From Chloroflexota bacterium (GTDB lineage: Bacteria > Chloroflexota > Anaerolineae > UBA2200), in the NCBI GenBank assembly GCA_014360905.1, contig JACIWW010000003.1, positions 1 to 64,000 of the forward strand: a DNA stretch of 64,000 nt, written 5' to 3'. Below, piece after piece: positions 4,455-64,000 of the stretch (positions within the stretch are counted from its first letter, which is position 1; every line of letters begins with the position of its first letter). Under the pieces are notes generated by a model that saw nothing but the letters and a program-made list of their open reading frames with translations, did not search any database and was not told the origin of the DNA. The position numbers and the translations under genes are program-made.

Positions 4455-4591
4455 AGGTTTTGCCATTCGGGTTCACGGCGCAAATCCACGGGTCCGCAGC
4501 GGTATCCAATATACGAGGTATGCTTCCATTTGCAATCTAATACTGTGTTTTTGTGGGGAGCTCTATCAAGTATCGGAAAGGGGAGCGGAGA

Positions 4592-7500
4592 ATGAGGGTT
4601 AGAGCCCTGATAAGTGTAGTTACGTTTGGCATGCTGTTTATCTTTTTATGTGCGGCTACCCAGGTCAGGGGCATGACCATCGAATCAACGCTGATGGGAG
4701 CCAGCCTCCAAAGTTGGTATGATTTTCAACCCAGTGGGTGGGTTACAACCACTTTGGTGACCTGTACGATCGAAGTTTACCACCCGGATGGGTTTATTGA
4801 CGAAGCCGAGTACCAATACCGCACGGGAGATGCTTGGAGCAACTGGGTTGCAGAAAGTCTTCAGATTGTCATATTGGATACCACAAGGCGCCGTTTGACT
4901 GTCTCCAATCTATTTTTCCCTCATTCTGCTACCGAGGATCAAAATCAGATCAGGTTTCGTATCAAGTCCTCACTTGACGAGTGGTTAGAAAGCAACGCCT
5001 ATTCTGTGCGCGTAGATAGAGTTGCTCCTGACTCCACTGTGGCTGTGGCTTCTTGCTATAGCTCTACTATGGAGATTAAGGGTGTGGCCAGCGATTCTGG
5101 CTCTGGAGTACAAGTTGTGGAAATCGCCTTGCAGCGCGCTTTGGACTCTTGGTATTTCAATGGCACCTCCTGGGGGCCAACGCTGAGTTGGATAGCTGCT
5201 TTTGGCACTACGAACTGGTCATTGCCGTTTACCCCAACGGTAGAAACAGTGTACACGGTTACTTCCAGAGCTACGGACAACGCCGGCAATGTGCAAGGGA
5301 TACCGGGAAGTGGCGTTTTCCGTTATGATGCAACTCCACCGCAGTCTGTAGTAACGACTACTGGCTGCTTCAACACTTGGCCAGGGGCCATACAGGGTTT
5401 GGCCAACGACGCATTTTCTGGTGTTGCGTCAGTGCAAATCCGATTGCAAAGGGCCTCGGATCGTTTCTATTACAATGGAACCTCCTGGGGGCCAACTGAG
5501 AGTTGGGTTACGGCTTCTGGAACAGCTGTCTGGTCATTGCCATTTACACCACCTGTGGAAACAGTATACACGGTTACTTCGAAAGCTGTAGATAATTGTG
5601 GTAATTGGCAAAGTGTGTTTATCACGAGTACGTTCAGTTATGATGTCACACCGCCCCAGACAGTGGTAACAACCACCGGCTGCTTCAATAGCTGGCCTGG
5701 AGCCATACAGGGTGTGGCTAGTGATTTGGTCTCCGGAGTTTCTTACGTTCAGGTAAGGCTGCAGCGGGCGTTGGATGGCTTTTATTACGATGGCTTTTCT
5801 TGGACGCCTGTTGCCACCTGGCTCACAGCTACTGGGACAACTGACTGGTCGTTGCCCTTTACGCCAACACTGGAAACAACCTACATGGTTGCTGTGAGGG
5901 CCGCAGATCATTGTGGCAACCTGCAAATCGAGCCTGGCACAGGTGTGTTCACCTATGATGCCACTCCCCCTGAATCTGTGGTTGCCACTGTTGGTTATTT
6001 CAATACGTGGCCCGGAGCAATCGAGGGCATAGCCAGCGATGCTGTGTCCGGGGTTGCACATGTTCGAGTGAAATTGCAGAGGTCATTGGACCATTTCTAT
6101 TATGATGGCTTTTCCTGGGCATCGGCTGAAAAATGGATTACGGCTACTGGAAACATTACCTGGACAGTGCCCTTTACACCAACCGTAGAAGCAGTCTACA
6201 CAGTCACCAGCCGTGCTACAGATTCCTGTGGTAACGTGCAAGATATCCCTGGTATAGGCACGTTTGTGTACGACATCACACCGCCATCATCGCCCTTTAA
6301 CCTTGCTGTTGAACCTTCGGTGTGGACACCAGTGAATTCTTTTACTGTAACATGGGAATGTCTTGCCGACCTTTCAGGAGTTAAGCTCGCGCACTATAAA
6401 TGGAATGCTGCGCCGGTGAACAACGAAGATGAATCGCCAGGGTCACCCGTACCAATCTCAGGCGAGAGAATTCAAAGCATCCAAGGATTGGCCGTGCCGA
6501 CACAGGGTGCCCATCAGCTTTTCATCTGGCTGGAGGACAAGGCGGGCAATGTTAACTTCCAAACCCGCAACGCCACTACAGTAGGAGCATTTAAATGGGA
6601 TGCCGAACCTCCAGCTACAACTATTGTGAACTTGGATGGCAGGCAGGGATGCGAAGGCTGGTATATTTCTGCAGTACAGGTCAACCTCTCCGCTGTGGAT
6701 GTAAATCCAGACCCAGGTACGATCAATGCGACTTCTGGCATCAGTGCAACATTTTGGCGCAAAGATGGAGGCAGCTGGCAGCAAGTGACCGGATCCAACT
6801 TCCAGATAGCGGAGCAAGGTGTTCATACCATCGAGTACTATTCGGTGGATATTGCGGGCAATAGCGAAACACCACGTGAGCTCACTCCTACGCTAAAGAT
6901 TGATACGGTGCCACCTACTACGTACCAACCTATCTATACTGGTACCCTAGGGCGTGAAGGTTGGTACATATCGCCAGTTTCCGTGACTTTGAATGCTGTG
7001 GATGCTACTTCTGGCATATCCATCACCTGCTATCAGGTAGATACGGACACTTTGCAGACGGGAGATTCATTTTGTGTAACCGCTGATGGAGCGCATACTA
7101 TTCGTTATTACTCTGTTGACGTTGCGTGCAATTGGGAGACAGAACAAACTGCCACACTCAAGGTAGATAAAACTTATCCCACTACTGCCTACCAACTGGA
7201 AGGCGTTCAGGGTGACAACGGCTGGTTTCTCGCCGCGCCGGTGACCGTGACCTTAATCGCCAGCGATGCCGTTACGGGTGTACAGGGGGTCTCTGGCGTG
7301 GATAAGGTGCATTACCGCATTGACAGCGGGTCCTGGCAGATCAGGGAGCCGCTAACATCGTTTACCATTACGATCCCGGCAGGGCAGAGCGAGTACATGC
7401 GTACGGTCACGTACTACGCAACGGACCTGGCTGGCAATATAGAACCGATGCGCACGCTGACCATTGGTGTGGATTCCCGCGCACCATTGGCTCTTCCTTA

Positions 7501-9586
7501 CGCCCCATATCCTGTGCCCAGTGGCTGGACCAATATCAACTGCTTCGATATCCGTTGGTTTGCGAATCCTGCTGATTTTTCAGGCATCGGTGGAGCTTAC
7601 TATAGTTTTCATGTGCCGGTTTCACCGACCGATGGGATTCTTGTCCTTGGTGACAATATCATGTCTATCCCGTGTGTGCAGGTGCCAACCCAGCTCGGAG
7701 ATGGGTTGCATAATGTGTATGTTTGGTTGCGGGATAGAGCAGGTAATAGCGATCATCGCACCAGACATGCGGTCACGCTAGCACTGGATCAGACTCCTCC
7801 TCAATTGAGCGCAGTGGTAGCAGGACGCCTGTGTAACGTGGGTGGATGGTACAATTCTCCTATTACTGTCACTTTTGTGGCGACGGATGCACTCTCAGGC
7901 ATGGCTACTGGAGTGATTAGTTATCAGGTAAATGGTGGAGGCTGGGTGCAAGGCACTGCTTATTACGAGTCCAGCGATGGCCGCTATGTGATCGAAAGCA
8001 GGGCCAGGGATGTCGCTGGCAACCATAGCGACATCGTCACCGCAACTGTCCGAATCGATCAGACGGCGCCAGATGCGCCCATGCCTATTTGGGTTGAGCC
8101 AAGCGATTGGTCCAGAGAGAACAATTTTGTGGTTCGTTGGGTGAATCCTTGGGATTTATCTGGAATAGCAGGAGTTTACTATAAACAGGTAAATCCTCCA
8201 ACTTTTTCCTCAGATGGAACTTATGTGGATGGTTTCCATAGCTCACTTGCTATCTCTGCTACTGAGGAGGGGTTGATACCAGTCTATGTATGGCTGGCAG
8301 ATAAGGCCTGCAACAAGGATCATCAGAAACGAGGCATGGTTACACTTAAATACGACCGAACGCCGCCTACAACCACTTTTAGTGTGGAGGGTGTTTCTGG
8401 AGGTGAAGGTTGGTACACCTCAGATGTGCAAATCTCATTGAATTGTACAGACGCTCACTCCGGATGCAAGCAGGATGGTACCTACTATCGGATTGGCGAT
8501 GGGGCATGGCATAATGGCACTTCGTTTGTCATAAGCGCTGAAGGCGTCATTACGTTCTCGTACTATTCTGTGGATATCGCAGGCAATACGGAAGCCATAC
8601 GCACAGGTTCGGTCAAGATTGACCGCACTCCACCCTCATCCTATGCCTATGCTGATCGCTACAGTCCATCTACCTCTTTCACTGTCCGTTGGAATGGCAG
8701 TGATGGATTATCTGGCCTTGCTGCCTTTGACGTACAGTATAAAGAAGGGACGATTGGCACTTGGCAAGATTGGGCCATTTCCTTAGACCCAACGCAGCGT
8801 TCCAAACTGTTTACTGGCGTGCGGGGAAGGACTTATTATTTCCGTACCCGGGCAATGGATAAAGCGGGCAATGTGGAGCCTTATCCTGTTGTTGCCGATA
8901 CCTATGTATCTATAGATCCTTTGCTCAATGGTGATTTCGAGCGCGATATTGCGAGTGAATGGGAGATCTTGTGGATCACTGGTGGCGGTCAGGGTAGCTG
9001 CTGGCCCACACGGGTTTATACACAGTCGTATAGCGGTGGGAATACCTATGCGGTGGTTCTGGGTTGCCGCGATAGAAGGGACGCTCCTTTTGGCGTGTCC
9101 ATGATCTGTCAGACTATCAATGTGCCTACCGTGCAGAACATGCCTGCTCCCATGCTACTTTTCCGTTACCGTATTTTCACGTATGATTTAATACTAGGGC
9201 CAATAACCGGAAAGTTCTTCGATTCCTTCAATATTGCTCTGTGGCGTCCGGGCGATATTTCTCCCACCTACGTTTTTACAGATGGGCACAAGGGTCCGGA
9301 TTATGGCACTTTGCGGGATTTGGGATGGCGTGAGGGAGCAGTGGATCTCAAGCCGTATGCAGGGCAAACACTAAAAGTTTGTCTTGCCAATGTGACTAGA
9401 GAGGATGAGCATCTGAATACTTGGACTTATGTCGACGATGTCCGAGTGGTCAATTTGGAGTATAAGATTTGTTTGCCTGTCATAAAGCGGCTTGTTCCTA
9501 TGGCTGGGTTAGCAGCAGAAGCAACGCTGAGTTCGGTACTCCCTAAAGTACAGGAGGAACTCGAATTGCCACCGCTTAAGCGATAG
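4592..9586 (+). CDS. secreted multi-repeat Ig-like surface protein
   Basis: A 1664-residue exported protein starting with a signal peptide (MRVRALISVVTFGMLFIF...). An in-frame GTG lies at 4553, but AAGGGGAG sits 6 bases before the ATG at 4592. About residues 145-565 hold four Ig-like repeats of 105 residues (PPQSVVTTTGCFNTWPG... to ...DNCGN). About 565-1440 hold further Ig/OmpL47-like repeats, recognisable from TPPTT..., GWY, VTLNAVD, EGVHTIEYYSVD and AGN. About 1443-1617 is a jelly-roll-like domain (NGDFE... to ...YVDDVRV). The tail contains YKICLPVIKR, close to a LPLV-type motif common near the C-termini of Chloroflexota surface proteins. No catalytic signature is seen, so an adhesive, structural or ligand-sensing role is likely. 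It lies between a response regulator and its probable kinase. Confidence 0.85.
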   Translation: MRVRALISVVTFGMLFIFLCAATQVRGMTIESTLMGASLQSWYDFQPSGWVTTTLVTCTIEVYHPDGFIDEAEYQYRTGDAWSNWVAESLQIVILDTTRRRLTVSNLFFPHSATEDQNQIRFRIKSSLDEWLESNAYSVRVDRVAPDSTVAVASCYSSTMEIKGVASDSGSGVQVVEIALQRALDSWYFNGTSWGPTLSWIAAFGTTNWSLPFTPTVETVYTVTSRATDNAGNVQGIPGSGVFRYDATPPQSVVTTTGCFNTWPGAIQGLANDAFSGVASVQIRLQRASDRFYYNGTSWGPTESWVTASGTAVWSLPFTPPVETVYTVTSKAVDNCGNWQSVFITSTFSYDVTPPQTVVTTTGCFNSWPGAIQGVASDLVSGVSYVQVRLQRALDGFYYDGFSWTPVATWLTATGTTDWSLPFTPTLETTYMVAVRAADHCGNLQIEPGTGVFTYDATPPESVVATVGYFNTWPGAIEGIASDAVSGVAHVRVKLQRSLDHFYYDGFSWASAEKWITATGNITWTVPFTPTVEAVYTVTSRATDSCGNVQDIPGIGTFVYDITPPSSPFNLAVEPSVWTPVNSFTVTWECLADLSGVKLAHYKWNAAPVNNEDESPGSPVPISGERIQSIQGLAVPTQGAHQLFIWLEDKAGNVNFQTRNATTVGAFKWDAEPPATTIVNLDGRQGCEGWYISAVQVNLSAVDVNPDPGTINATSGISATFWRKDGGSWQQVTGSNFQIAEQGVHTIEYYSVDIAGNSETPRELTPTLKIDTVPPTTYQPIYTGTLGREGWYISPVSVTLNAVDATSGISITCYQVDTDTLQTGDSFCVTADGAHTIRYYSVDVACNWETEQTATLKVDKTYPTTAYQLEGVQGDNGWFLAAPVTVTLIASDAVTGVQGVSGVDKVHYRIDSGSWQIREPLTSFTITIPAGQSEYMRTVTYYATDLAGNIEPMRTLTIGVDSRAPLALPYAPYPVPSGWTNINCFDIRWFANPADFSGIGGAYYSFHVPVSPTDGILVLGDNIMSIPCVQVPTQLGDGLHNVYVWLRDRAGNSDHRTRHAVTLALDQTPPQLSAVVAGRLCNVGGWYNSPITVTFVATDALSGMATGVISYQVNGGGWVQGTAYYESSDGRYVIESRARDVAGNHSDIVTATVRIDQTAPDAPMPIWVEPSDWSRENNFVVRWVNPWDLSGIAGVYYKQVNPPTFSSDGTYVDGFHSSLAISATEEGLIPVYVWLADKACNKDHQKRGMVTLKYDRTPPTTTFSVEGVSGGEGWYTSDVQISLNCTDAHSGCKQDGTYYRIGDGAWHNGTSFVISAEGVITFSYYSVDIAGNTEAIRTGSVKIDRTPPSSYAYADRYSPSTSFTVRWNGSDGLSGLAAFDVQYKEGTIGTWQDWAISLDPTQRSKLFTGVRGRTYYFRTRAMDKAGNVEPYPVVADTYVSIDPLLNGDFERDIASEWEILWITGGGQGSCWPTRVYTQSYSGGNTYAVVLGCRDRRDAPFGVSMICQTINVPTVQNMPAPMLLFRYRIFTYDLILGPITGKFFDSFNIALWRPGDISPTYVFTDGHKGPDYGTLRDLGWREGAVDLKPYAGQTLKVCLANVTREDEHLNTWTYVDDVRVVNLEYKICLPVIKRLVPMAGLAAEATLSSVLPKVQEELELPPLKR
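5021..6283 (+). repeat. four 315-bp tandem repeats inside the Ig-like protein gene
   Basis: A shared landmark, G-[VLI]-A-[SN]-D, begins at 5081, 5396, 5711 and 6026, exactly 315 bp (105 codons) apart each time. Copies two to four also share GCFN.WPGAI, and all four share W..PFTP..E..Y.V. The repeats have diverged in sequence but kept their length, which suggests older duplication with structural constraint. The first copy is two codons shorter before the landmark. Confidence 0.85.
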
Positions 9587-49366: not shown

Positions 49367-50659
49367 TTGTATAAAGTAAATCTGATTAATCCACCAAGTG
49401 CTCCTGGTACAGTAGCCAATCGCGAGGGTGCTGCGGGTATGGGAGTCGTATATCCCTACCCCGATGCCTTCTTCTATCCTCCACAAACATTGGCAACAGT
49501 AGCCGCGAGCCTGCGCGATGCTGGCTATACGGTACAGGCTTTTGATGCCGTGGTGGAGGAATTGGCTGCGCATGCAATGCAGGCGGATGTAATTGGCATT
49601 TTTGTCGCTTATGCTAGCTTAGATAATGACCTCGCTTTTATTCGTGCATTGCGCAAACAGACTGCGGCTATACTGATCGCTTTTGGTCCTGCGGTGCGCT
49701 TTGTTGCCGAGGAGATGCTGAGCCTAGTACCTGTAGATATCGTCCTCGTGGGTGAGGCGGAAGGATTTTTCGTGGCAGCGTTGCAGCATCTAAGGACCCA
49801 CGTAGAATCACACATTCCCCGAATGTTGACAGCAGAAAGCGTTGGGGCCTCTTGCTGCGATGCCTTGGGCTTTGTGCAAAATCTGGATGCACTACCTTTT
49901 CCAGCCTGGGATCTATTGCCCTATGAAAAGTACAGATTCCTGACCGTATTGAGCAGCCGTGGCTGCCCGGACCGTTGTGCCTATTGCCCTTATGCAGCAG
50001 CCCAGGGACACCGTTTTCGCCCCCGTTCGGTAGAGAATGTCCTGACAGAACTAGACTGGCTGAGCAGGCGTTTTCATCCTGTTAGGCTGATCTTTCGCGA
50101 CCCAGTGTTTGCTCATGACCGCGAGAGAGTAGTAGCCATCTGTGAAGGAATGCTGAGGCTTGATCTACGTCTGAACTGGGAATGTGAATCCAGGCCGGAG
50201 CACTTTGATGCAGATTTGCTTCGTCTCATGCAGCGTGCTGGCTGTCAATGGGTGAAGATCGGACTAGAGACGACGAATGCGCTGTTGTTGCAACAGTTGC
50301 GTAGAGTGAGCTCGGCAGAAGAAGCCACGGCGTATCTCAGCCATATTGCGGAAGTGGTAAGGGTATGCAGAGAGATTGAATTGCCATGCCGATTGTTTGT
50401 CATGGCTGGCCTGCCCGGCCAGGACATATCGATGGCGCAGCATACGCGCCATTTTATCGAGCAACTCAGACCTGCTGCATTGAACGTGAAAGTTTTCGAG
50501 AGATACCCAGGCATCGACCTGGAAGGTGAGCCAGATAAAAATGATGAAGCACAGTTGGCAATTTTGCGTCAGGCACAAGCAGCGCTTGTGCGTGACCAGC
50601 CAGGTCTCACTTTGTTGGTACGTGGCAAGCGTTGGCTGAGACGCACCCTACGCAGGTGA
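49367..50659 (+). CDS. B12-binding-domain-type radical SAM protein
   Basis: 430 residues, TTG start with AAGGAG 7 to 8 bases upstream. The N-terminal half is a cobalamin-binding-like domain (YKVNLINPPSAPGTV, FFYPPQTLATVAASLRDAGY). The cluster cysteines are C200, C204 and C207 in SSRGCPDRCAYC. WVKIGLETTNALLLQQL and LFVMAGLPGQD are family motifs. Its last base pairs overlap the esterase start (TGATG). The N-terminus resembles enzymes that modify lipids or carbohydrates. It is not closely similar to the protein at 15602. Confidence 0.86.
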   Translation: MYKVNLINPPSAPGTVANREGAAGMGVVYPYPDAFFYPPQTLATVAASLRDAGYTVQAFDAVVEELAAHAMQADVIGIFVAYASLDNDLAFIRALRKQTAAILIAFGPAVRFVAEEMLSLVPVDIVLVGEAEGFFVAALQHLRTHVESHIPRMLTAESVGASCCDALGFVQNLDALPFPAWDLLPYEKYRFLTVLSSRGCPDRCAYCPYAAAQGHRFRPRSVENVLTELDWLSRRFHPVRLIFRDPVFAHDRERVVAICEGMLRLDLRLNWECESRPEHFDADLLRLMQRAGCQWVKIGLETTNALLLQQLRRVSSAEEATAYLSHIAEVVRVCREIELPCRLFVMAGLPGQDISMAQHTRHFIEQLRPAALNVKVFERYPGIDLEGEPDKNDEAQLAILRQAQAALVRDQPGLTLLVRGKRWLRRTLRR

Positions 50660-52416
50660 TGAAGCCGATGGCGTCGAGTCCTGAACCAGCTATGAATGAC
50701 AGGCCAGTTGTCCTATTGCAAGGACTCCGTTTCCTCCCTATTCTCCTGCTATTGGCGCTATTTGCTTGGTTTACACTAAGCAAATGCTCGATTGAAGAGG
50801 CTGCAAACGATCAATTGGCCAACGATTTGCTCAGCGATGTAGAAGAGCCAGGCTGGACGGTGGTTGCCTCTACTGTGGGCAAGGAGTGCGCGATCGTTAC
50901 AGCTGACCGCAGAAAAGTTCAGTCAGCAGAAGGGAAGGTTCTGCTTTTCTACGAGGGTACACCGGAAGTTGCTCATCTAGTGCTAACCTCCTGCGGAGTC
51001 AAGTCAGGCAAAGCACACACGATTTACCTGAATGGAGAACCGGTAGCTCAGGCTCAAGATGACGCATTTCATACCTGCATGTGCAACGGAAATGGTCGGC
51101 TTGTAACCTACACATTGCCCGATCCCTCCATCGTTGTCAATGGCTGGAATCACATTAGTGTCACCAATGACGCAGATATCACAGATAGTTGGATGGCTCA
51201 CAATCTGCAGTTGATAATCAAGGGTAATCTATCCCAGGCAATTATTGCGGAATTTGCTTTTACCAGCAGTTATGATGGCAGTACGCGCTATACCGTGTAC
51301 CAGATACCGATTGGCCACACTCCAGGTACGCGTGTGCCATTGTTGGTATCCATTGGTGGGACTCTTGAGGACAAATGGGATGCCCTTTCCCGCTTTGCAC
51401 ATCGAGCTAACGTTAGAGGTTGGCTATTGATGGCACCCGATATCCGGCAAGTTAATAAGGAATCGCTTGGTCGGACCGCCTCTCTTGCTACTCAGCATGA
51501 CATCATGGATGCCATCTATTACATGATCCGTCATTATGAGGTGGATGTCAACCGCATCTACATGAGTGGTTTTTCTACAGGTGGTGGTGTAGCGGCAACG
51601 GTGGCAGCGAAATATCCTGATGTCTTTGCAGCGGTTGTAGCTTGGAAAGGACCGACTAACCTGTTACAGTGGATCGAACAGCGCCCCCAGTTATATTTTG
51701 GCTTGGTGACCTATGACTTTGGATGCCCGCCGCAAGGAAACACGTCGGCCTGTCCGTTCGAATGGAGGCGTCGAGCTGCATGGGAGTTGGTGATGAACCT
51801 GAAGCATGTGCCGATGGCTATTGTTCATGGCCGTGCCGATGACCGGGTGCCATTTGCTCAGTCTAGGGAGTTCTATGACCGAATGGCTGCATTCTATGAT
51901 CCGATTGCGCACAACAAATTGGCTGTTTGGCATGATGGCGGTCATGTTGATTCATTGCCCAATTTTGACGGATTAGATTTTTTGGCCCAGTTCACCGTGA
52001 ATACCAATCCCAGAGATGTCATGATCAGAACCGATGAGAGCAAAAGCTACTATTGGGTGCATGTCGAGCAGAGGGATTGGAATGGCAAGCACATTGAGGG
52101 CTTTAGTAACGTAGTGGCCGACTACGACTTAGCCACACGGGTGATCTCGGCCACAGTGTGGGATGAGCGCGTTTTTGAGGATGGCACCTTACCGATTGAT
52201 GTCACTTTTGATCTAGTCGCGATGGGATTTGACCCCTCTACTGCATATACCATTGAAGATCACCACATTGCCTCGGGCAAAGTGTGGTGTAAGCAAGACA
52301 TCTTGCCCGTGGAAGGACGTTTGACCATCTCTTTGCCTCGCGAGCATTTGGGCGAAGAACGCCATCAGTATCGAATCTATCCCTCTTCTCGAGTCGGAGA
52401 CCAGACTTGCCAATGA
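50659..52416 (+). CDS. membrane-anchored esterase/depolymerase-like alpha/beta hydrolase
   Basis: 585 residues. An N-terminal hydrophobic anchor (FLPILLLLALFAWFTL, about 29-45) exports the rest. About 60-215 form a beta-rich domain (YEGTPEVAHLVLTSCGV, WNHISVTNDADITDSWM). The hydrolase domain holds the nucleophile S306 in GFSTGGG, the Asp region VHGRADDRVPF and the His in VWHDGGHVD. The fold is that of PHB-depolymerase/feruloyl-esterase-type enzymes, which cut ester bonds in polymers. A C-terminal beta domain (about 450-585) follows. The same three-part module occurs twice in the product at 56923. The start overlaps the radical SAM stop, so one message carries both. Confidence 0.86.
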   Translation: MKPMASSPEPAMNDRPVVLLQGLRFLPILLLLALFAWFTLSKCSIEEAANDQLANDLLSDVEEPGWTVVASTVGKECAIVTADRRKVQSAEGKVLLFYEGTPEVAHLVLTSCGVKSGKAHTIYLNGEPVAQAQDDAFHTCMCNGNGRLVTYTLPDPSIVVNGWNHISVTNDADITDSWMAHNLQLIIKGNLSQAIIAEFAFTSSYDGSTRYTVYQIPIGHTPGTRVPLLVSIGGTLEDKWDALSRFAHRANVRGWLLMAPDIRQVNKESLGRTASLATQHDIMDAIYYMIRHYEVDVNRIYMSGFSTGGGVAATVAAKYPDVFAAVVAWKGPTNLLQWIEQRPQLYFGLVTYDFGCPPQGNTSACPFEWRRRAAWELVMNLKHVPMAIVHGRADDRVPFAQSREFYDRMAAFYDPIAHNKLAVWHDGGHVDSLPNFDGLDFLAQFTVNTNPRDVMIRTDESKSYYWVHVEQRDWNGKHIEGFSNVVADYDLATRVISATVWDERVFEDGTLPIDVTFDLVAMGFDPSTAYTIEDHHIASGKVWCKQDILPVEGRLTISLPREHLGEERHQYRIYPSSRVGDQTCQ

Positions 52417-54132: not shown

Positions 54133-55092
54133 ATGAAGGCATTTGTGACTGGAGCGACTGGTTTCGTGGGTTCTGCCGTAGTGCGTAGTTTGCTGCGCAG
54201 GGGCGTTGAAGTCAGAGTGCTGGCTCGGCGAAGCAGTGACCTACGCAATATTGCTGGCCTTGATTTGGAAATTTCTTATGGCGATCTATTACATGAAGAG
54301 GCCCTGGCACGGGCTTTACAAGGTTGCAATGTCGTTTACCATATCGCCGCCTATTACAGTACGGATGAAGCCGATAGCCAGATGATGTACGAGGTGAACG
54401 TGCGCGGGACGAAGGCGGTAATGCGTGCTGCACTGAAGGCAGGGGTACAGCGCGTCGTGCATACCAGTACTATCGGGACAATTGGGCAACCCGAGGATGG
54501 TACTCTAGCGACTGAAGAGACGCCCTTCAATCTATGGGATAGCGCTAGTCACTATGTCAAATCTAAATACCTCGCCGAGGTTGCAGCGCTTGCAATGTGC
54601 AAACAAGGCTTGCCTGTGGTTGTGGTAAACCCTTGTGCACCGGTAGGCCCACGGGATATCAAGCCAAGCAGCACAGGTCAACGTGTCCTGGATTATCTCA
54701 ATGGCAAGCCTCCTTCCTTTGTGCCAGGAGGGATAAATTTTATCTCAGTTCACGATGTTGCAGAGGGTGAAGTGTTGGCAGCAGAAAGGGGTCGTGTGGG
54801 TGAGAGGTATATCCTTGGTCATAAGGACGGTAACCTGCAATTGTCAGAATTTTTGGCTTTAATGGAACAGGTATCAGGAGTCAAACGCCCTCGCATAACC
54901 AAACACCCGCTCTCCATTTTGTCTGCCATGCGAGGCAGGTCATCTGATAAAGCACCCAGTTTCAGGCCAAGATCACTGACTTGTGACCCATCGAAGGCTA
55001 TTCGTGAATTGGGATTGCCCCAGACACCGCTGCCGGTGGCATTTGCAGAGGCTATTGCCTGGTTTAGAGACAATGGGTATGTCCGGACATGA
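54133..55092 (+). CDS. hpnA: HpnA-like sugar epimerase/SDR oxidoreductase
   Basis: 319 residues. The Rossmann motif is VTGATGFVGSAVVRSLL, followed by RSSDLRNIAGLDLEISYGDL. The catalytic pair is Y141 and K145 in HYVKSKYLAE, with HTSTIGTIG upstream. The signature VNPCAPVGPRDIKPSSTGQ and LDYLNGKPPSFVPGGINFISVHDVAEG match the hopanoid-associated epimerase HpnA closely. No squalene-hopene cyclase or other hopanoid gene is visible, so here it may act on a glycan precursor. GGGGAA lies before the ATG. Confidence 0.85.
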   Translation: MKAFVTGATGFVGSAVVRSLLRRGVEVRVLARRSSDLRNIAGLDLEISYGDLLHEEALARALQGCNVVYHIAAYYSTDEADSQMMYEVNVRGTKAVMRAALKAGVQRVVHTSTIGTIGQPEDGTLATEETPFNLWDSASHYVKSKYLAEVAALAMCKQGLPVVVVNPCAPVGPRDIKPSSTGQRVLDYLNGKPPSFVPGGINFISVHDVAEGEVLAAERGRVGERYILGHKDGNLQLSEFLALMEQVSGVKRPRITKHPLSILSAMRGRSSDKAPSFRPRSLTCDPSKAIRELGLPQTPLPVAFAEAIAWFRDNGYVRT

Positions 55093-55129
55093 GTTGATAT
55101 TTCAGAGTTTGCCTCAGGGGAGTGAGATC

Positions 55130-55822
55130 ATGCAGAGGATTAGTAAGTGGGCTGGATATATGCGAAAAAAGGTCTTGGCTATTCTGATGGGAGTATCGGC
55201 AGTACCCGTTTTGGGATGGTTGACCGTGCGGCTTGCCGAAGCCTTAGTTGGGCCTTACAAAGATCGACGTATACTGGCACAAGTGACCTCCAGACCTTAT
55301 ATTTCGCCTCATGCCCAGATAAAATGCCCTCATTTACGAGTTGGGCGTAATTGTTTCATAGACGAGAGAGTAACCATTTACTCTCACCATAATGGGGGTG
55401 AGGTTCGCCTGGGCGATCGAGTGCATATATACCGAGACACGATCATCGAAATCGGAATGGGAGGAAGCGTGATGATCGGAGATAATACGCATATTCAGGC
55501 ATCATGCAATATCAAAGGCTTTCTGAAGAGCGTCATTATTGGTCACAATGTACAGATCGCCCCTCATTGTGCTTTCAGCCCCTATGAGCATAACTTTGAA
55601 GACCGGTATAGGCCTATCAATGCACAGGGTATCCGCAGTGCAGGCGATATTGTGTTGGAAGACGATGTGTGGCTTGGGTTGGGAGTCAAGGTGCTGGAGG
55701 GCGTGCGCATTGGCAAAGGGGCTGTGATTGGAGCTGGTGCGGTGGTCACCAAAGACATCCCTGAATATGCTATCGCGGTAGGTGTGCCAGCGCGTGTCAT
55801 CCGCTGGCGTGGCGAGGCGTGA
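55130..55822 (+). CDS. hexapeptide-repeat acyltransferase (WbbJ-like)
   Basis: 230 residues from ATG 55130, selected by GGGGAG 7 bases upstream. A hydrophobic stretch at about 14-40 (VLAILMGVSAVPVLGWL) may bind the membrane. About 60-225 contain left-handed beta-helix repeats (VRLGDRVHIYRDTIIEIG, SVMIGDNTHIQASCNI, VRIGKGAVIGAGAVVTKDIP) and end with VGVPARVIRWRG. The loop APHCAFSPYEHNFED holds the catalytic His and matches O-acetyltransferases of surface polysaccharide clusters. It probably acetylates a sugar of the glycan. The promoter at 55850 follows immediately. Confidence 0.92.
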   Translation: MQRISKWAGYMRKKVLAILMGVSAVPVLGWLTVRLAEALVGPYKDRRILAQVTSRPYISPHAQIKCPHLRVGRNCFIDERVTIYSHHNGGEVRLGDRVHIYRDTIIEIGMGGSVMIGDNTHIQASCNIKGFLKSVIIGHNVQIAPHCAFSPYEHNFEDRYRPINAQGIRSAGDIVLEDDVWLGLGVKVLEGVRIGKGAVIGAGAVVTKDIPEYAIAVGVPARVIRWRGEA

Positions 55823-55849: not shown

Positions 55850-55883
55850 TTTTCATAAGTTTTTCATTTTGGGTTGTTAGAAT
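55850..55883 (+). promoter_or_regulatory. PhoB-type promoter (site C) before the methyltransferase gene
   Basis: TTTTCAT at 55850-55856 and TTTTCAT at 55861-55867 are 11 bp apart, and TAGAAT (55878-55883) comes 10 bases later. The first repeat plus spacer, CTTTTCATAAGT, resembles the start of the E. coli phoA box (CTGTCATAAAGT). The transcript should start near 55890, just before the GAGG that serves the ATG at 55903. This rules out an earlier in-frame ATG at 55882, which lies inside the -10. Confidence 0.7.
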
Positions 55884-55902
55884 GGGCGGGAAAGAGGATG
55901 AC

Positions 55903-56811
55903 ATGCTGGAAAGCGTTCGTTGCAATCTTTGCGGTGCTGACGATACTGAGCCTGTAGCGGAGATCGATGATTTTCACATTGTCCGCTGCCGGCAGTGTGG
56001 TTTGGTCTATGTCAATCCACGCTACCAGGAAGGCTTCCTTCAGGAACTCTATACCGCAGAGTATTATGTTCACGATGGCATCAAAAATGGCCTGGCTTTC
56101 TTTGGTTATGATGACTATATTGCCGATGAGGAGAACATCAGGATTACCTTCGCCAAACGCTTGAAAACCATTGAACGATTTGCGAACAAAGGCAAACTGT
56201 TGGATATCGGCTGTGCGACTGGGTTTTTCTTGGATCTTGCGCGAACCAGGGGCTGGGAAGTAGTCGGCAGCGAGGTATCCACATTCGCTGCACAGTATGC
56301 GCGCGACAGGTTTGGATTAGATGTGCACGAAGGCTCACTTAGAGAGTTACATTTTGCTGCAGAAACGTTTGATGTGGTAACCATGTGGGATGTTATCGAG
56401 CACGTAGCAGACCCAATGGGTGATTTACGGGAGGTTTGGCGTATTCTGCGTAAGGGTGGGTTGCTTTCCTTGATCACACCAGATTGCAGCAGTCCGATAG
56501 CACGCTTATTGGGCAAGCGTTGGGAGGAGGTACGCCGGGTGCGCGAACACATCTACTTCTTTTCTCGGCGCACGATGACCGAGATGTTGCGTAGAGCCGG
56601 TTTTGAGGTGCTGAAGATAGAAAGTGCTGACAAGGTCTTCTATTTGGGTCCAGCAATGCAGCGGCTAAAGTACTATACCTGGGATGGAATTTTGACGAAT
56701 ACAGCAACTCGCCTCGTGTACAAGCTGGGTCTGGACAAGATCCGCATCAACATCAACCCTTTCACGAAAATTGCAGTATATGCCCGTAAGCAGTGCGATT
56801 CCTCTCTGTGA
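55903..56811 (+). CDS. class I SAM-dependent methyltransferase with N-terminal zinc ribbon
   Basis: 302 residues. C7, C10, C29 and C32 form a CxxC...CxxC ribbon (RCNLCGADD, RCRQCGLVY) that starts many sugar C- and O-methyltransferases. The SAM domain has LLDIGCATGFFLDLA (motif I), FDVVTMWDVIEHVADP and WRILRKGGLLSLITPD. The YAEFY-like segment is YTAEYYVHDG. The ATG at 55903 has GAGG 5 bases upstream; an earlier ATG at 55882 overlaps the -10. It has its own PhoB-type promoter. Likely targets are a sugar nucleotide or glycan residue. Confidence 0.9.
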   Translation: MLESVRCNLCGADDTEPVAEIDDFHIVRCRQCGLVYVNPRYQEGFLQELYTAEYYVHDGIKNGLAFFGYDDYIADEENIRITFAKRLKTIERFANKGKLLDIGCATGFFLDLARTRGWEVVGSEVSTFAAQYARDRFGLDVHEGSLRELHFAAETFDVVTMWDVIEHVADPMGDLREVWRILRKGGLLSLITPDCSSPIARLLGKRWEEVRRVREHIYFFSRRTMTEMLRRAGFEVLKIESADKVFYLGPAMQRLKYYTWDGILTNTATRLVYKLGLDKIRININPFTKIAVYARKQCDSSL

Positions 56812-56922: not shown

Positions 56923-59900
56923 ATGACCAGAATCTCTGTTATTTTCGTCATTGCTTTGGCTTTGGCCATTGGCCTGTGGCTGACTGTATCTTGGAATATC
57001 GGGAGCCAGATAGCAACGGTGGCTGTCTTGCCAGCCCACGCCCAGCAAGGAGTGTATAGCGTTACTTTTCAGACCAATGTTTCGCCTGCTGGATACCGCG
57101 GTGCTGCTGACGCCTTTCTCAACTACTTTTCTGCGACCGAAAATCAAGGAGCCAGTGGCGACTTGTGGGTCAGAAGCGATGGTTGGCAGCGTGCTCTGAT
57201 GAAATTTGACTTGACGCAGCATATTCCCGAGGGTGTACGAGTGCTCTCGGCGACGTTGACTATCCGTGTGAGCAACCGGACAGCTTCTTATCCTATACGC
57301 TTGCAATGCTACCATGTGTTGCAACCTTGGATGGAGTCTCAAGTGACCTGGAACAACGCCTCGCAAGGAGTAAGTTGGTGGGGTGGGGGCGGATGCGAGG
57401 GAAGTTCACGCTCTGAAGGGCCATTTTATCAGACCGAGGTGAACAACCCTGCTGGAGATATTGTTGTGCTGGATCTGACGAGCGCAGTACAAGCATGGGT
57501 GGATAACCCGGCAGCGAATTATGGATTCCTGCTGCAGGGGGCTACTGTTGTAGCGAACGTGACCTATAAATTTGCTAGTTCTGACAACCTCACTCCTCAT
57601 TATCGCCCCCAATTGGTAGTGACATACGAGGGTGCGCCGCCACTGGCCACTCCTACACCAACGCGAACTCCCACCAAAACACCTACGCCTTTTCCACCAA
57701 CAGTCCTTACCTCAACGCTAGCCGATTGGCAGTTTGATCAGTGTCTAAAGGCTAATTCGGAGCAACCCGTGTCGAACGCGGAGATGATGCTGCTAATCTG
57801 GCAGGGTACCCCCTGGACAGCGGAATTGCGATTGACCATCTGCAACAGCGACAGTCCACACCCTATCTATCTCAATGGCAAGCTTGTTGGCACAGCCCCG
57901 ATCACTTCGACTGAAAACTGTGAATGCAATGAAGAGCAACGTCGTGGGTATCAGGCTCGGTTTGAGATAGACCCAAGTTGGATCAATTCTGGGCCAAGCT
58001 ATATGAACTTTATCACGGTTACCAATGAGGCGAATCCCTGGGACAGTTTCAAGGCTTATGGGGCGCATATCATCCTCAGCGGTGACATCACTGGCGCGAC
58101 GCGGTCTTATTTCGATTTTGCTTATGACTATGATGGGTCACTGATAAGGGGAGCAATACAAATCCCTATTGGTTACAATCCCAGTGTGGCTACGCCATTG
58201 CTTATCTCAGTGCCTGGTACAGGGGAGGATAAAGATCATGGTCTAATCCGGTACGCTGCGCGGGCCAATGAGATGGGTTGGTTGTTAGCTTCGCTGGACA
58301 TGCGCAAGGGTTGGAACAGCACTTCGGCTACACCAGCCAGAACGCCTTCTCTGGCCGTTCAGCAAGACATTATCAGACTATTGCAGTATGTACAGACTCA
58401 TTACAACGTGGACCGAACGCGGGTCTATATCGCGGGCTTTTCAACTGGTGGAGGTATTGCAGCCACTGTAGCAGCGAAGTACCCGGATGTCTTTGCAGGA
58501 GTAATTGATTACGCGGGTGTGACGAGCTATGCAGAGTGGTATCAGGAGCGTGGGGATCTCGCTGTGGTATTAGAACGCGAACTCAATGGGACTCCCTATG
58601 GGAATTTTGAGTACGCACGTCGTTCCAGTCGTTTGTTGGCGCGCAATCTGCAATATGTGGCGATGCGCATCGTGCACGGTACAGCAGATGACCGGGTACG
58701 CTCTACCCATTCATCTAAACTCTACAACGAAGTTATGCCACTGTTCTATGATCCGGCGCTTACATTTAAGGAGTTTCATCAGCATTCGGGAGGGCATACG
58801 CCTGATCTTGCTGGTGTGAGTGAAACGGACTTGCACTTCCTGGCCCAGCATACGCTAGTGGAGAATCCGCGTGAGCTAAAGCTCATTACAGATGAAGGCA
58901 AGAATTACTACTGGCTTCGAGTGGATAAACTAGGCGTCTCATCCACTGCTTGGCGCGGTTGGGTGGAAATGGATGCCAGATATGACCCCAATACCAGCAC
59001 TATTTGGGTGAGTGTAAAGGAGGGCGATTTTTCTGAAGGCAAGCCGCTTACCGTCACACTCGATTTGTCGAAGATGGGTCTGAACACAACCTCTGTATAC
59101 GATATCGAGGAATATGATGAGCAAACAGGGGAATTTTCTTTTCGTACAGCGGTTATGCCTGTTGCGGGCAAGTTGATTTTGACAGTGCCGCGGAACGCAC
59201 TGGGATATGTGATTCGTCAGTACGTAATCTACCCAGCTGGGAGCAGGCAATTGCGGCTTCTGCGCTTGCAGCAGGGGGTAGATGGTTATACAGGGACACA
59301 GGACACTTACATTACCTCGTGGCCAAGCGAGGGACCAGAGGAGCCTCACGGCTCTTCACCCACATTGCTTCTCGCTTATGATGCACGCCGCAAAGCGCTG
59401 CTCAAATTTGATTTGAGCTCTGTGCCTGCTGGTATGGAGATCAAAGCTGCCAAGTTGACGGTGCATCTGGTAGAGAACAGAGGAACAGGCATCAATGTTG
59501 GTGCATATGAAGCCCTACGACCGTGGGCGGATGACAGGGCAAGTTGGCAGTGGTCAAATCCAACTCAGCAATGGACTGTTGCAGGCGGGGATGGTGCTGG
59601 CGATCGCGCTTCCTCAGCTACGTATACTGTGCAAAACGTGCGGCTGACGGGAGCGTATACTTTTCATCTCAAGTCCCTAGTGGAACACTGGCTGGCTGAA
59701 CCTAACAGCAATCATGGTTTGTTTTTGATTGGGAGCGGGTCTTATACAACAGACAGTTATCCTTTGGCATCGGCAGAATATGCTGACGTCAGCAAACGAC
59801 CTCTGCTGGAAATCTGGTACATGGAGCCACTGCCTACGCCAACTAGTACACCGATTCCTACAGCGACCTCTACTCCTACGACAACGCCCACACCCGGAGC

Positions 59901-62589
59901 GTCAACGTCCACACCCACTAGAACGGCAACACCAACGTCCACTGTTACTCCAACACAGACACCGACTCAGCTTTTTGTTCCCACAGTATTGACCTCGACT
60001 GCGTCCGGTTGTATGGAGATCGTGCCTGACCTGGTTGGGCGCACCGTGCAGAAGGCCGAATCGCGGATGTTGCTCCTCTGGGAGGGGGCTATCTCAACTG
60101 CTCGTCTGGTTCTCCCGTCGTGCGGGGTCAGGCCAGGAGTGCATCACACAGTCTATCTCAACGGTCAACCAGCAGTCAAAGTTGCTGATGATGTGTACAG
60201 TACGTGCATTTGTTATAGTAGTGGACAGGCCGTGACCTACACTTTAAGCAATCCGAATATAGTGCTGAGCGGGTGGAACTATATTAGCATCACCAATGAT
60301 GCAGATGTGACCGATGCTTGGATGGCCTATAGCGCAAGGCTGATCATCGAGGGCAATTTGACAGGAGTAGTCATTCGCGATCTCGTGTTCACTAGTACAT
60401 ATGATGGGAGTACGCGCCGCGCCCTTTATCAGGTGCCTATCATGCACAACCCTGGTCGTCCCATGCCGCTATTGGTGTCTGTGGGCGGTATTGGTGAAGG
60501 CAGATGGGAAGCTCTCTACCGCTATGCCGAGCGTGCCAATGCTCGGGAGTGGCTGCTACTTGCTCCCGACATTCGTTCTGCTACGGGCAATGAGGGAGGA
60601 CGCACCGCTTCGCTACCGGTACAACATGATATCATAGATGCCATTGACTATCTGCTAACAGATTCTAGTTTGAATATAGACCCTACTCGGATCTATTTAA
60701 GCGGTTTCTCCGTGGGTGGAGGCATAGTAGCCACAGTAGCAGCCAAATACCCGCACAGAATTGCCGCAGTGGTTGATTGGGCTGGCCCAACTGATCTTAA
60801 AGAATGGGCAGAGCAAAGGCCGTCAGTGCAGCCTTCGCTTATCGCAGATATTGGATGCCCATTTTCAGGCCCTGGTATGTGTCCAATGGAGTGGATGCGG
60901 CGCTCTGCCAGAGCGATGGCTCAGAATTTGAAACACGTGGCTTTGGCTGTTGTTCATGGTCGAAATGATACGAGGGTCCCCTTTGCACAATCGTGGGATT
61001 TTTATCAGCATATGCGAAGCTTTTTCGTGCCAGAGGAGTATCATAAACAGTTCATTTGGCATGATGATGACCACGTAGATTGGTTGCCGGATTTCGATGA
61101 CCTGGGTTTTATGGCTAACTTTACTTTGAATGCCAATCCTACGGATATTATGATTAGGGCGGACGAGAGCAAGGACTATTATTGGGTGCGTATGCAGCAA
61201 AAGGATTGGAATGGCAACTGGGCAGAAGGCTTTAGCAATGTTGTAGCTAGCTACGATGCAGCTACACGCGTGATTTCGGCTACTATCTGGGATGGGCGTG
61301 CTTTCCAAGATGGTAATTTGCCTTTGGATGTTGCCTTTAACCTGATGGCCATTGGCTTCGATCCCTATGCTACCTATACAGTTGAGGATTATAATGTAGC
61401 CACGGGGGATTTCGAGGCGCGAAACGTGTCGCCGGTGGATGGTTATCTGCTTGTCTCATTGCCGAGGGATCGCTTGGGTAAGGTGCATCACCAATACTTG
61501 ATCTACCCCTTCACCTCGCTTGAGTTTTACCACACGATTTTGCAGCAGGGAACTGCTTATATGGGCACAACAGATACTTACATCTATCAGTATCAACCCA
61601 CTGCTAACTATGCGGCCAGTCCAGAGCTAAAGGTCAACAACGGTGGAAGCTTATTGGGATTATTGAAGTTTAATCTGAGTGGCATTCCGCAGGGTGCCAT
61701 TATCAAGCAGGCGCTTTTGACTCTGTATCTTGGCAATACCCTTTCCAACAGTCTTGAGGTTAGCCTTTACCCCTTGCTTGTGCCTTGGGTAGATACAGAA
61801 GCTACCTGGAATCAGGCTGCGCAGGGTGTACCTTGGGCTGTTCCTGGAGCAGGCGCTGCAGATATAGACTACAATCCCACGCCAGCGGCTGTAGCCGCGG
61901 GTGTGCGAGCGAGTGGTCCTTATGTGTTTAATGTGAAAACAACAGTCCAAAACTGGCTAACAGGGACCCTACCCAACGAGGGCCTATTGATTTCTGGCCC
62001 GCGTGGCGGTGGCTCTGGATCGGAACACTATCGATTTGCTTCATCCGAGGCGTCAGATGCAAGCCGCAGGCCTGAGTTGCGGATTATTTACGCATTGCCT
62101 ACACCTATGCCGACTAGTACGGCTACGCCGACACCAACTCCAACTCCTACTGCTACATTGACCTGTATCCTTCAGGGAAAAGTCTCTTTGCAACGTCCGA
62201 CTAAACCTGCACCTGATCCAAGCTGGATTACTCAACTGAGTGTGATGGTCGGTAGCAATCGTTATCAGGTTCTCACAGATCAGTGGGGGAATTTCACCCT
62301 CTCTAATTTGGTGCCAGGAATTTACGATATCCGAGTGAAAGGCAGTCATACCCTATCTAACGTTGTAAGGGGGGTGATCTTAAATACTGGCCTGAATGTA
62401 GTTGATTTCGGCACTCTCAGGGAAGGCGATGCTAATGACGACGATTGTGTCAATATGCACGATTTTATTATCCTAAGGGTTACATTTAACAGCAGCTCCG
62501 ATCTTCGTGCTGATTTCAACCAAGATGGCATGGTCAATATGCTTGATTTTGTGCTGTTGAGAGGAAACTTTGGATTATGTGGCCAGTAA
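56923..62589 (+). CDS. giant secreted protein: two esterase modules, three DNRLRE-type domains, C-terminal dockerin
   Basis: 1888 residues; AGGAGA lies 6 bases before the ATG. A signal peptide (ISVIFVIALALAIGLWL) is followed by a DNRLRE/CBM96-like domain (about 40-235), a Pro/Thr linker (243-263) and a first hydrolase module with S507 in GFSTGGG. The second DNRLRE-like domain (about 778-970) leads through a longer linker to a second hydrolase module with S1263 in GFSVGGG, VVHGRNDTRVPF and WHDDDHVDW. A third DNRLRE-like domain (about 1537-1725) and a linker precede a carboxypeptidase-regulatory-like domain and a dockerin (about 1835-1888). The dockerin shows two Ca-binding loops, DANDDDCVNMHDF and DFNQDGMVNMLDF. 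It probably attacks ester bonds in a polymer and docks to a cohesin partner, which is not in this window. Confidence 0.9.
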   Translation: MTRISVIFVIALALAIGLWLTVSWNIGSQIATVAVLPAHAQQGVYSVTFQTNVSPAGYRGAADAFLNYFSATENQGASGDLWVRSDGWQRALMKFDLTQHIPEGVRVLSATLTIRVSNRTASYPIRLQCYHVLQPWMESQVTWNNASQGVSWWGGGGCEGSSRSEGPFYQTEVNNPAGDIVVLDLTSAVQAWVDNPAANYGFLLQGATVVANVTYKFASSDNLTPHYRPQLVVTYEGAPPLATPTPTRTPTKTPTPFPPTVLTSTLADWQFDQCLKANSEQPVSNAEMMLLIWQGTPWTAELRLTICNSDSPHPIYLNGKLVGTAPITSTENCECNEEQRRGYQARFEIDPSWINSGPSYMNFITVTNEANPWDSFKAYGAHIILSGDITGATRSYFDFAYDYDGSLIRGAIQIPIGYNPSVATPLLISVPGTGEDKDHGLIRYAARANEMGWLLASLDMRKGWNSTSATPARTPSLAVQQDIIRLLQYVQTHYNVDRTRVYIAGFSTGGGIAATVAAKYPDVFAGVIDYAGVTSYAEWYQERGDLAVVLERELNGTPYGNFEYARRSSRLLARNLQYVAMRIVHGTADDRVRSTHSSKLYNEVMPLFYDPALTFKEFHQHSGGHTPDLAGVSETDLHFLAQHTLVENPRELKLITDEGKNYYWLRVDKLGVSSTAWRGWVEMDARYDPNTSTIWVSVKEGDFSEGKPLTVTLDLSKMGLNTTSVYDIEEYDEQTGEFSFRTAVMPVAGKLILTVPRNALGYVIRQYVIYPAGSRQLRLLRLQQGVDGYTGTQDTYITSWPSEGPEEPHGSSPTLLLAYDARRKALLKFDLSSVPAGMEIKAAKLTVHLVENRGTGINVGAYEALRPWADDRASWQWSNPTQQWTVAGGDGAGDRASSATYTVQNVRLTGAYTFHLKSLVEHWLAEPNSNHGLFLIGSGSYTTDSYPLASAEYADVSKRPLLEIWYMEPLPTPTSTPIPTATSTPTTTPTPGASTSTPTRTATPTSTVTPTQTPTQLFVPTVLTSTASGCMEIVPDLVGRTVQKAESRMLLLWEGAISTARLVLPSCGVRPGVHHTVYLNGQPAVKVADDVYSTCICYSSGQAVTYTLSNPNIVLSGWNYISITNDADVTDAWMAYSARLIIEGNLTGVVIRDLVFTSTYDGSTRRALYQVPIMHNPGRPMPLLVSVGGIGEGRWEALYRYAERANAREWLLLAPDIRSATGNEGGRTASLPVQHDIIDAIDYLLTDSSLNIDPTRIYLSGFSVGGGIVATVAAKYPHRIAAVVDWAGPTDLKEWAEQRPSVQPSLIADIGCPFSGPGMCPMEWMRRSARAMAQNLKHVALAVVHGRNDTRVPFAQSWDFYQHMRSFFVPEEYHKQFIWHDDDHVDWLPDFDDLGFMANFTLNANPTDIMIRADESKDYYWVRMQQKDWNGNWAEGFSNVVASYDAATRVISATIWDGRAFQDGNLPLDVAFNLMAIGFDPYATYTVEDYNVATGDFEARNVSPVDGYLLVSLPRDRLGKVHHQYLIYPFTSLEFYHTILQQGTAYMGTTDTYIYQYQPTANYAASPELKVNNGGSLLGLLKFNLSGIPQGAIIKQALLTLYLGNTLSNSLEVSLYPLLVPWVDTEATWNQAAQGVPWAVPGAGAADIDYNPTPAAVAAGVRASGPYVFNVKTTVQNWLTGTLPNEGLLISGPRGGGSGSEHYRFASSEASDASRRPELRIIYALPTPMPTSTATPTPTPTPTATLTCILQGKVSLQRPTKPAPDPSWITQLSVMVGSNRYQVLTDQWGNFTLSNLVPGIYDIRVKGSHTLSNVVRGVILNTGLNVVDFGTLREGDANDDDCVNMHDFIILRVTFNSSSDLRADFNQDGMVNMLDFVLLRGNFGLCGQ

Positions 62590-62658
62590 TGCCTCATTGA
62601 CCTTGCTCATCGAGCACGGGCTTGACCATGGCGATGATTCGTGCTGGAAGAAGATAAA

Positions 62659-64000
62659 ATGAAAGTTTGTTTGGTCTATTCAGATGTTGGCGGTGTGGCA
62701 CGGTATGGTGCCCGCAAATATTACCATGGCCTGGGCTATCTTTCCAGTGTATTGAAGCAGGCAGGTCATCAAACTGCTTTGATCTACCTCTTGGCTGAGC
62801 CTGTGAAAGGTGAGTTTCTGCAGCAAGTCGCTGCTATAGCGCCAGATATTATTGCTTTTTCTGCCACTACCCATCAATTTCCTTACGTGGAAAAATGCGC
62901 CCGCTGGATCAAGGAATCCTTGCCAGAGATGCTATGCATAGCTGGCGGACCCCATCCCACACTTGTGCCAGAGGATGTGCTTGCTAACTCGAATTTTGAC
63001 CTGGTTTGCATCGGCGAAGGCGAGTACCCTTTGCTCGATCTAGTGACAGCTCTACAAGAAGGGCGAGAGATAACGAATATTCCTAACCTTTGGCTGCGCC
63101 GAGATGGGGCTTTGGTTAAGAATCCCTTGCGACCGTTGCTGGCCAATCTGGATGAGCTGCCCTTCGCCGATCGAGAACTGTTCGATTTTGAGCAGATTCT
63201 GGCAGCTAACGATGGATGGGTGGATATGATGGCCGGACGAGGTTGTCCATATGGATGTTCTTATTGCTGCAACCCCATCCTTCGCGAGAAATTCAAAGGA
63301 CTGGGCAGGTATGTCCGGTTCCGGAGCGTGGACAATGTGCTCTCTGAAATACGCTTCTTAACTGGTCGCTACAGGGTCAAAACGCTGAATTTCCAGGATG
63401 ATGTCTTTACCCTCGATCGGAACTGGACATTGCAATTCTGCCGGAAGTATGAAAGGGAATTTGACCTTCCATTCTGGATTAACACGCGAGTCGAACGCAT
63501 TAACGATGAAGAAATAGTAGCAGCATTAGCTCGTGCCGGATGTCGTGGAGTGCGTATCGGCATCGAATCGGGCAATGAAAAGCTGCGCGCTGAAATACTC
63601 AAGCGACGCATGTCCAACGATGAGATTCGGCATGCCTTCGCCCTGGCACGCCGGCATGGTTTGGATGTGTACACATGCAACATGCTTGGTATACCAGGAG
63701 AAACAGCGGAGATGATTCAGGAGACTGTTGACCTGAACCGCGAATTGCAGCCCGCAGATTTACAATTCTCAGTTTTTTATCCTTACCCTATGACTGAACT
63801 CTATGATTTGGCGGTGCGCGAAGGGTATCTGATAGAGGGTGAATCATTGCCTAGTTACTACGAGCGTAGAAGCATTCTCCGCTTGCCCACTTTGACCCCT
63901 GAGGAGTTGGAGCGGGGCTATGATCGGTTTCAGCAACTCAAGGATGAATTACGCCTGAAAAGGGAAAATCCGCGCAAGTACCGCGTTTATCAAGTGTTAC
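62659..64000 (+). CDS. B12-binding-domain-type radical SAM protein (3' end outside window)
   Basis: The frame is open from ATG 62659 to the window end, 447 codons with no stop, so the gene is partial. The first part is a cobalamin-binding-type domain (MKVCLVYSDVGGVARYG, GLGYLSSVLKQAGH, IAGGPHPTLVPED). The cluster cysteines are C196, C200 and C203 in AGRGCPYGCSYC. VRIGIESGNEKLRAEIL and NMLGIPGETAEM are family motifs. GGAAGAAG precedes the ATG. It follows the large esterase gene by 69 bases and may belong to the same unit. The substrate is unknown. Confidence 0.85.
   Translation, partial: MKVCLVYSDVGGVARYGARKYYHGLGYLSSVLKQAGHQTALIYLLAEPVKGEFLQQVAAIAPDIIAFSATTHQFPYVEKCARWIKESLPEMLCIAGGPHPTLVPEDVLANSNFDLVCIGEGEYPLLDLVTALQEGREITNIPNLWLRRDGALVKNPLRPLLANLDELPFADRELFDFEQILAANDGWVDMMAGRGCPYGCSYCCNPILREKFKGLGRYVRFRSVDNVLSEIRFLTGRYRVKTLNFQDDVFTLDRNWTLQFCRKYEREFDLPFWINTRVERINDEEIVAALARAGCRGVRIGIESGNEKLRAEILKRRMSNDEIRHAFALARRHGLDVYTCNMLGIPGETAEMIQETVDLNRELQPADLQFSVFYPYPMTELYDLAVREGYLIEGESLPSYYERRSILRLPTLTPEELERGYDRFQQLKDELRLKRENPRKYRVYQVL

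Follow-up and report, generated by a model that had tools for sequence, protein, structure and literature searches.

An esterase with a type II-like X-dockerin in a glycan locus points to a probable non-cellulosomal docking system in Anaerolineae

The 64,000-nucleotide stretch of Chloroflexota DNA analyzed here (the window) encodes, on the forward strand at positions 56923–62589, an 1888-residue protein that joins two complete hydrolase modules to a C-terminal region whose sequence and predicted fold both match type II X-dockerins. We consider it probable (roughly 0.6) that this is a secreted glycan-ester hydrolase whose X-dockerin docks it on a cohesin at the cell surface or in the extracellular matrix, where it would edit the polysaccharide exported by its own cell. 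The host lies close to the Anaerolineales genomes UBA2200 and UBA6131. We found no description of a cohesin–dockerin system of this kind in Anaerolineae in the literature searched, and one study reported that six genomes of the class contain neither cohesin nor dockerin (PMC4877987).

An earlier note on this DNA gave the extent and length of the reading frame exactly. The protein begins with a signal peptide, read by eye from the translation (about residues 1–41, 56923–57045, ..PAHA/QQ), followed by a DNRLRE/CBM96 domain (residues 62–234, 57106–57624; Pfam and NCBIfam), esterase module 1 (residues 257–778, 57691–59256; Pfam and homologue alignment), a second DNRLRE/CBM96 domain (about residues 795–975, 59305–59847; Pfam, NCBIfam and comparison with relatives), a Thr/Pro-rich linker (59848–59971), esterase module 2 (residues 1018–1535, 59974–61527), a third DNRLRE/CBM96 domain (about residues 1543–1725, 61549–62097; Pfam and NCBIfam) and another Thr/Pro linker. 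An X-module (residues 1743–1832, 62149–62418) and a dockerin (residues 1833–1888, 62419–62586), both assigned by Pfam, profile and fold comparison, complete the chain, and all of these features lie on the forward strand. The DNRLRE-like separators that the earlier note described are present, and their number is refined to three: Pfam finds three CBM96/DNRLRE and two alpha/beta-hydrolase stretches, and the NCBIfam DNRLRE_dom model scores 258.9 bits across three copies. These domains would bind polysaccharide.

In each esterase module an alpha/beta hydrolase sits between two beta domains, the C-terminal one of which opens with a nearly invariant DE-x-K-x-YYW motif. The claim that a complete hydrolase module occurs twice and keeps its Asp and His holds at the level of single residues. 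Module 1 carries GFSTGGG from residue 505 and module 2 GFSVGGG from residue 1261, and the full triads, Ser507 (58441–58443), Asp589 (58687–58689) and His625 (58795–58797) in the first and Ser1263 (60709–60711), Asp1349 (60967–60969) and His1384 (61072–61074) in the second, are identical across all 19 aligned homologues. With GxSxG followed by Asp and His in order and a hydrolase fold, both modules belong with the alpha/beta-hydrolase serine esterases (CE1/BD-FAE/S9-like). Over both, dN/dS against the congener is about 0.04–0.08, with dS near saturation. Short esterase relatives with the same DESKSYYW motif also occur outside Chloroflexota, in Candidatus Zipacnadia (L059–L061).

The hydrolase part of module 2 (AlphaFold model, mean pLDDT 89) resembles S9 peptidases and carbohydrate esterases. 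Its tightest fold match is the C-terminal esterase domain of LC-Est1 (LC-Est1C; Z 24.3, rmsd 1.6 over 183 residues, 25% identity), which is also the best PDB sequence match of the esterase profile (3wyd, E 6e-29), and gut carbohydrate esterases are close folds as well. Unlike LC-Est1C, the hydrolase here is flanked by two extra beta domains carrying an invariant E-x-K-x-YYW motif, and it is present twice. S9 peptidases rank level with esterases in the comparison and ester and peptide substrates are not separable by fold; neither sequence nor fold settles the substrate. Activity as an extracellular polyester (PHB) depolymerase or as an S9-type peptidase is very unlikely. The NCBIfam PHB-depolymerase models and Pfam Peptidase_S9 do match the double esterase, and S9 enzymes head the fold list, but the PHB models NF050058 and TIGR01840 stay below their curated cut-offs (120.3 versus 150 and 72.8 versus 107.85 bits), the S9 beta-propeller is absent from the protein, and the carbohydrate-binding-type domains and glycan locus point elsewhere.

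The terminal two-loop dockerin was recovered by Pfam, with Dockerin_1 matching residues 1835–1880 at E 6.4e-5 when the whole protein is searched (23.5 bits, the cut-off being 22.9) and at E 9.6e-7 (31 bits) in a whole-genome scan. Calcium loops 1 (DANDDDCVNMHD, residues 1836–1847, 62428–62463) and 2 (DFNQDGMVNMLD, residues 1864–1875, 62512–62547) are complete, with D or N at positions 1, 3, 5, 9 and 12 of both, the pattern of a dockerin (PF00404), and the calcium-liganding positions are strongly conserved among 43 dockerins of the class. The best PDB match of a profile of the last 146 residues is 4wi0_B (E 5e-10), the X-dockerin of a cellulosomal scaffoldin, and the match spans both the X-module and the dockerin halves. 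A predicted structure of moderate confidence (built with 7 sequences; pLDDT 78, with a low 54–70 in the dockerin half) places one helix after each calcium loop (103–112 and 131–140), and the ten structures that it matches best in the PDB are without exception type II X-dockerins, at a TM of about 0.7. Since profile and predicted structure both match type II X-dockerins across the two halves, the CarboxypepD_reg-like beta sandwich before the dockerin is best read as an X-module. The type II recognition pattern consists of Met10, Ala17, Phe20 and Asn/Gly21 (PMC5590126); here Met10, Phe20 and Asn/Gly21 occur in both repeats, and position 17 is Arg, with Ala in several orthologues.

The window dockerin also has a Cys in calcium loop 1 (62446–62448) and another at its C-terminus (62578–62580), which likely form a disulphide clasp, as judged from their distribution: among 43 aligned dockerins, 14 have both, 25 neither and 4 a single one.

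A search for cohesins elsewhere in the genome had been set beforehand, beside the dockerin fold, as a refuting test of the docking idea, and the outcome of both favoured docking. Profile searches found seven cohesin domains, one of them on the window's own contig, together with six X-dockerins, using a cohesin profile built from three Pfam cohesins plus cohesin-like neighbours of dockerin genes and a matching profile for X-dockerins. With seven matching cohesins in the genome, surface attachment of the enzyme through its dockerin is probable. The nearest solved relatives of the cohesin profile are type II cohesins. Because PF00963 alone recovers only three of the seven, the number of Chloroflexota genomes with a PF00963 cohesin, at least 18 of 201, is a lower bound.

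The cohesin gene on the same contig (C3:92301–94250), about 30 kb downstream of the esterase gene, encodes a 649-residue cohesin and DNRLRE protein and is adjoined by the gene of another X-dockerin protein. We would expect the type II-like X-dockerin of the esterase to bind a cohesin on an anchored partner, most likely this protein, or otherwise another of the seven. A further locus encodes a 1698-residue protein that has both an X-dockerin and a cohesin; the cohesin encoded next carries three LysM repeats, and this two-gene unit is a candidate adaptor and wall anchor. At yet another locus, a cohesin gene adjoins a glycosidase-like X-dockerin gene. The two-gene unit, a protein of 1.6–1.8 thousand residues ending in X-dockerin–cohesin and then a LysM cohesin, is conserved to the level of the order (L008, 3046–9356 on contig C29; L119, L127, L128). 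Elsewhere, a papain-like peptidase has an internal cohesin that closely resembles that of the C3 protein (L120, 3523–6573 on contig C9), and cohesin, X-module and dockerin are joined in single chains, sometimes in tandem (L064, 2141–3103; L099, 937–3075; L100), and such chains might form head-to-tail polymers, provided that their dockerin fits the same type of cohesin.

We rejected the possibility that cohesins are absent or derive from a contaminant bin, since the window's own contig carries one and the arrangement recurs in related genomes. Across 41 Anaerolineae genomes, 23 have both cohesin and X-dockerin, 3 only the cohesin, 4 only the dockerin and 11 neither (p=1e-4, a value that serves only as a guide because the genomes are related), and a cohesin lies within 3 kb of 58 of the 105 dockerins. 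That the C-terminal domain is instead a calcium-stiffened cap that binds no cohesin appears improbable. The dockerin drifts fast, being the part of the protein that changes most between congeners (61% identity, against 81–85% for the esterases), and the cohesin proteins of this genome have one cohesin each, as such a cap would allow; on the other side stand the presence of cohesins, their co-occurrence with and frequent proximity to dockerins, the agreement of Met10, Phe20 and Asn/Gly21 with the published type II pattern, and the retention of an own X-dockerin copy on each gene where the esterase is split. The non-classical cohesin–dockerin surface assembly suggested in the earlier note is therefore well supported by genome evidence, in the form of cohesins, anchors, neighbouring genes, co-occurrence and fold, and the binding itself is predicted.

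In classical cellulosomes, the type II cohesin–X-dockerin pair fixes the complex to the cell. Cohesin and dockerin domains were reported by Peer and colleagues in 2009 to occur also in organisms without cellulosomes, and their roles there are uncertain. The pairs of C. thermocellum (CipA XDoc, 2b59/5g5d) and A. cellulolyticus (ScaA XDoc, 4wi0/4u3s) share with the present one an X-module and two-loop dockerin of the same overall fold, and the matching cohesins here are also type II in character. The present system differs in that the X-dockerin sits directly on an enzyme, that the genome has neither a cellulase complement nor a multi-cohesin scaffold, and that about a third of Anaerolineae dockerins have the Cys pair. 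Enzyme-borne type II dockerins with X-modules are known from the cellulosome of Pseudobacteroides cellulosolvens (PMC5590126); however, that organism has 78 cohesins and 212 dockerin ORFs devoted to plant-wall degradation, against seven and six in a setting of glycan biosynthesis here. Non-cellulosomal cohesin and dockerin proteins, of uncertain role, are likewise found in ANME archaea (PMC9012536), so that the esterase arrangement is a variant of something already known; what sets it apart is the conserved docked esterase, the specific glycan locus, the LysM-bearing cohesin and the exchange of a dockerin for a tail, described below.

The genomic setting bears on what the enzyme acts upon. The window is a long one-strand surface-glycan cluster with PMT_2-type glycosyltransferases, GT2 enzymes, epimerases, a polysaccharide deacetylase, methyltransferases and radical-SAM genes. 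Upstream of the esterase are a hexapeptide-repeat acyltransferase (54983–55822) and a methyltransferase (55882–56811), and downstream is a radical-SAM gene that runs past the window (62641–63999), with Wzx-, GT-, Wzc- and Wzy-like genes next; all three are conserved neighbours on the forward strand. In the family members examined, over as much of each as the fetched stretch covers, the genes keep the arrangement epimerase–hexapeptide acyltransferase–methyltransferase–esterase–radical SAM–methyltransferase–Wzx-like–glycosyltransferases–Wzc-like, and part of it recurs across the taxonomic order. The Wzx, Wzc and Wzy labels come from our own reading of the sequences and not from database hits. 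From gene context, the most plausible role for an esterase kept next to an acyltransferase in a polysaccharide-export locus is that of an editor of that polysaccharide. In the mechanism that we favor, the secreted protein would hold two serine-esterase units at the cell surface or in the matrix, and these would strip acyl groups, probably acetyl-like, from the cell's own exported polysaccharide, whose assembly genes surround the gene. PHB, feruloyl and acetyl-xylan substrates, which the earlier note had suggested, become less likely, as the PHB models are not reached and the Wzx/Wzc locus and acyltransferase point to the cell's own polysaccharide. The window also encodes, at the beginning of this cluster, an otherwise unannotated 1677-residue protein with Ig-like domains (4553–9586).

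A different target is conceivable, namely plant or detrital polysaccharide attacked by a small cellulosome-like system in which the esterases strip feruloyl and acetyl groups and docked glycosidases cut the backbone. The BD-FAE (bifunctional feruloyl-acetyl xylan esterase) model of Pfam scores above its cut-off in the double esterase, LC-Est1C and gut carbohydrate esterases are close in fold, and the other dockerin proteins include likely TIM-barrel glycosidases. We regard this as unlikely, though it is the strongest of the competing explanations: every family member examined has the gene fixed in the Wzx/Wzc glycan-export locus, the six dockerin proteins form a small set whose scanned members gave no cellulase or xylanase family match above cut-off, and one dockerin-bearing member is a peptidoglycan protein. 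The genome has no multi-cohesin protein, and with one cohesin in each cohesin protein no multi-enzyme scaffold is evident. The peptidoglycan protein, which combines SpoIID and N-acetylmuramoyl-L-alanine amidase and ends in an X-dockerin (L012, 4572–9074 on contig C22), brings a wall enzyme into the docking set.

Relatives for tracing the history of the gene were gathered by profile searches. Module 1 is 38% identical to module 2, which is 56% identical to a single-module paralogue in the window (50632–52416, forward strand; N-terminal hydrophobic segment, nucleophile Ser315, no dockerin). In the esterase tree the two modules form separate lineages, and the fused genes make up a clade within each (96/90 and 100/99). 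A recent or simple internal duplication was thus rejected, as module 2 groups with the paralogue and both lineages are older than the family. Four family genomes have the fused form seen here. Two have a pair of adjacent genes instead, both with an X-dockerin of their own at the end, and X-dockerin, stop, new start and signal peptide lie at the position of the Thr/Pro-rich linker between the modules. In one genome of the order, two esterase genes in tandem lack dockerins. The simplest reading of these sequences is one fusion of neighbouring genes; fission of a fused gene is a possible alternative. Orthologues outside the family lack the dockerin, and catalysis is therefore independent of docking, which, like the fast drift of the dockerin, counts against the mechanism that we favor. 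Concerted evolution of dockerins within genomes was also tried as an explanation; the X-dockerin tree separates two classes (100/99) and leaves the enzyme class mostly unresolved.

The proteins that carry cohesins look anchored, to judge from their ends, and dockerin proteins almost never carry such anchors. The cohesin proteins terminate in one of several ways: with LysM repeats, with a transmembrane helix together with basic residues, with a PEP-CTERM-like end (L073), or with a short tail, of which LYLPLVLKSGVPR, YCYLPLIRNK and IFLPIIFTY are examples. A YLPLI-type tail is found on 23 of 53 cohesin proteins against 1 of 36 proteins ending in a dockerin. Among the esterase homologues, the tail is present in 15 of 15 without an X-dockerin (one by a looser pattern) and in 0 of 8 X-dockerin genes, a descriptive count of related sequences that omits two membrane-anchored single-module paralogues, a frameshifted gene, a contig-end fragment and the short Zipacnadia relatives. 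Because the dockerin-free homologues end in the tail, dockerin and tail look like interchangeable surface addresses. It is possible, and we propose it tentatively, that Anaerolineae have two such C-terminal addresses, the tail as an undescribed form of envelope retention and the X-dockerin acting through a tail- or LysM-bearing cohesin, and that the glycan-locus esterase gave up the tail for the X-dockerin, whereby the editing of polysaccharide came to be docked. A non-cellulosomal cohesin–dockerin role becomes testable here because the enzyme is conserved, its gene neighbourhood is defined, matching cohesins are present and nature offers an exchange of dockerin for tail; the role at stake is that enzymes which edit polysaccharide are docked on the cell surface in a widespread and little-studied bacterial class.

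A literature search for the tail motif returned unrelated peptides only and no description of it. As a general secretion tag in this genome the tail was rejected, being rare outside cohesin proteins: in an 800 kb sample it occurs in 3 of 425 cytosolic-like genes and in 5 of 117 secreted-like ones, and four of these five encode cohesin proteins from chosen loci. The tail follows the pattern [YFLV]-[LIV]-P-[LIV]-[LIV]-x-[KR], often after Thr/Pro linkers (L009, L010, L011, L020–L032, L054, L123). The X-dockerin of one split relative (L017/L053) has ..RRLPVLLR after it, and this stretch may be a remnant of the tail.
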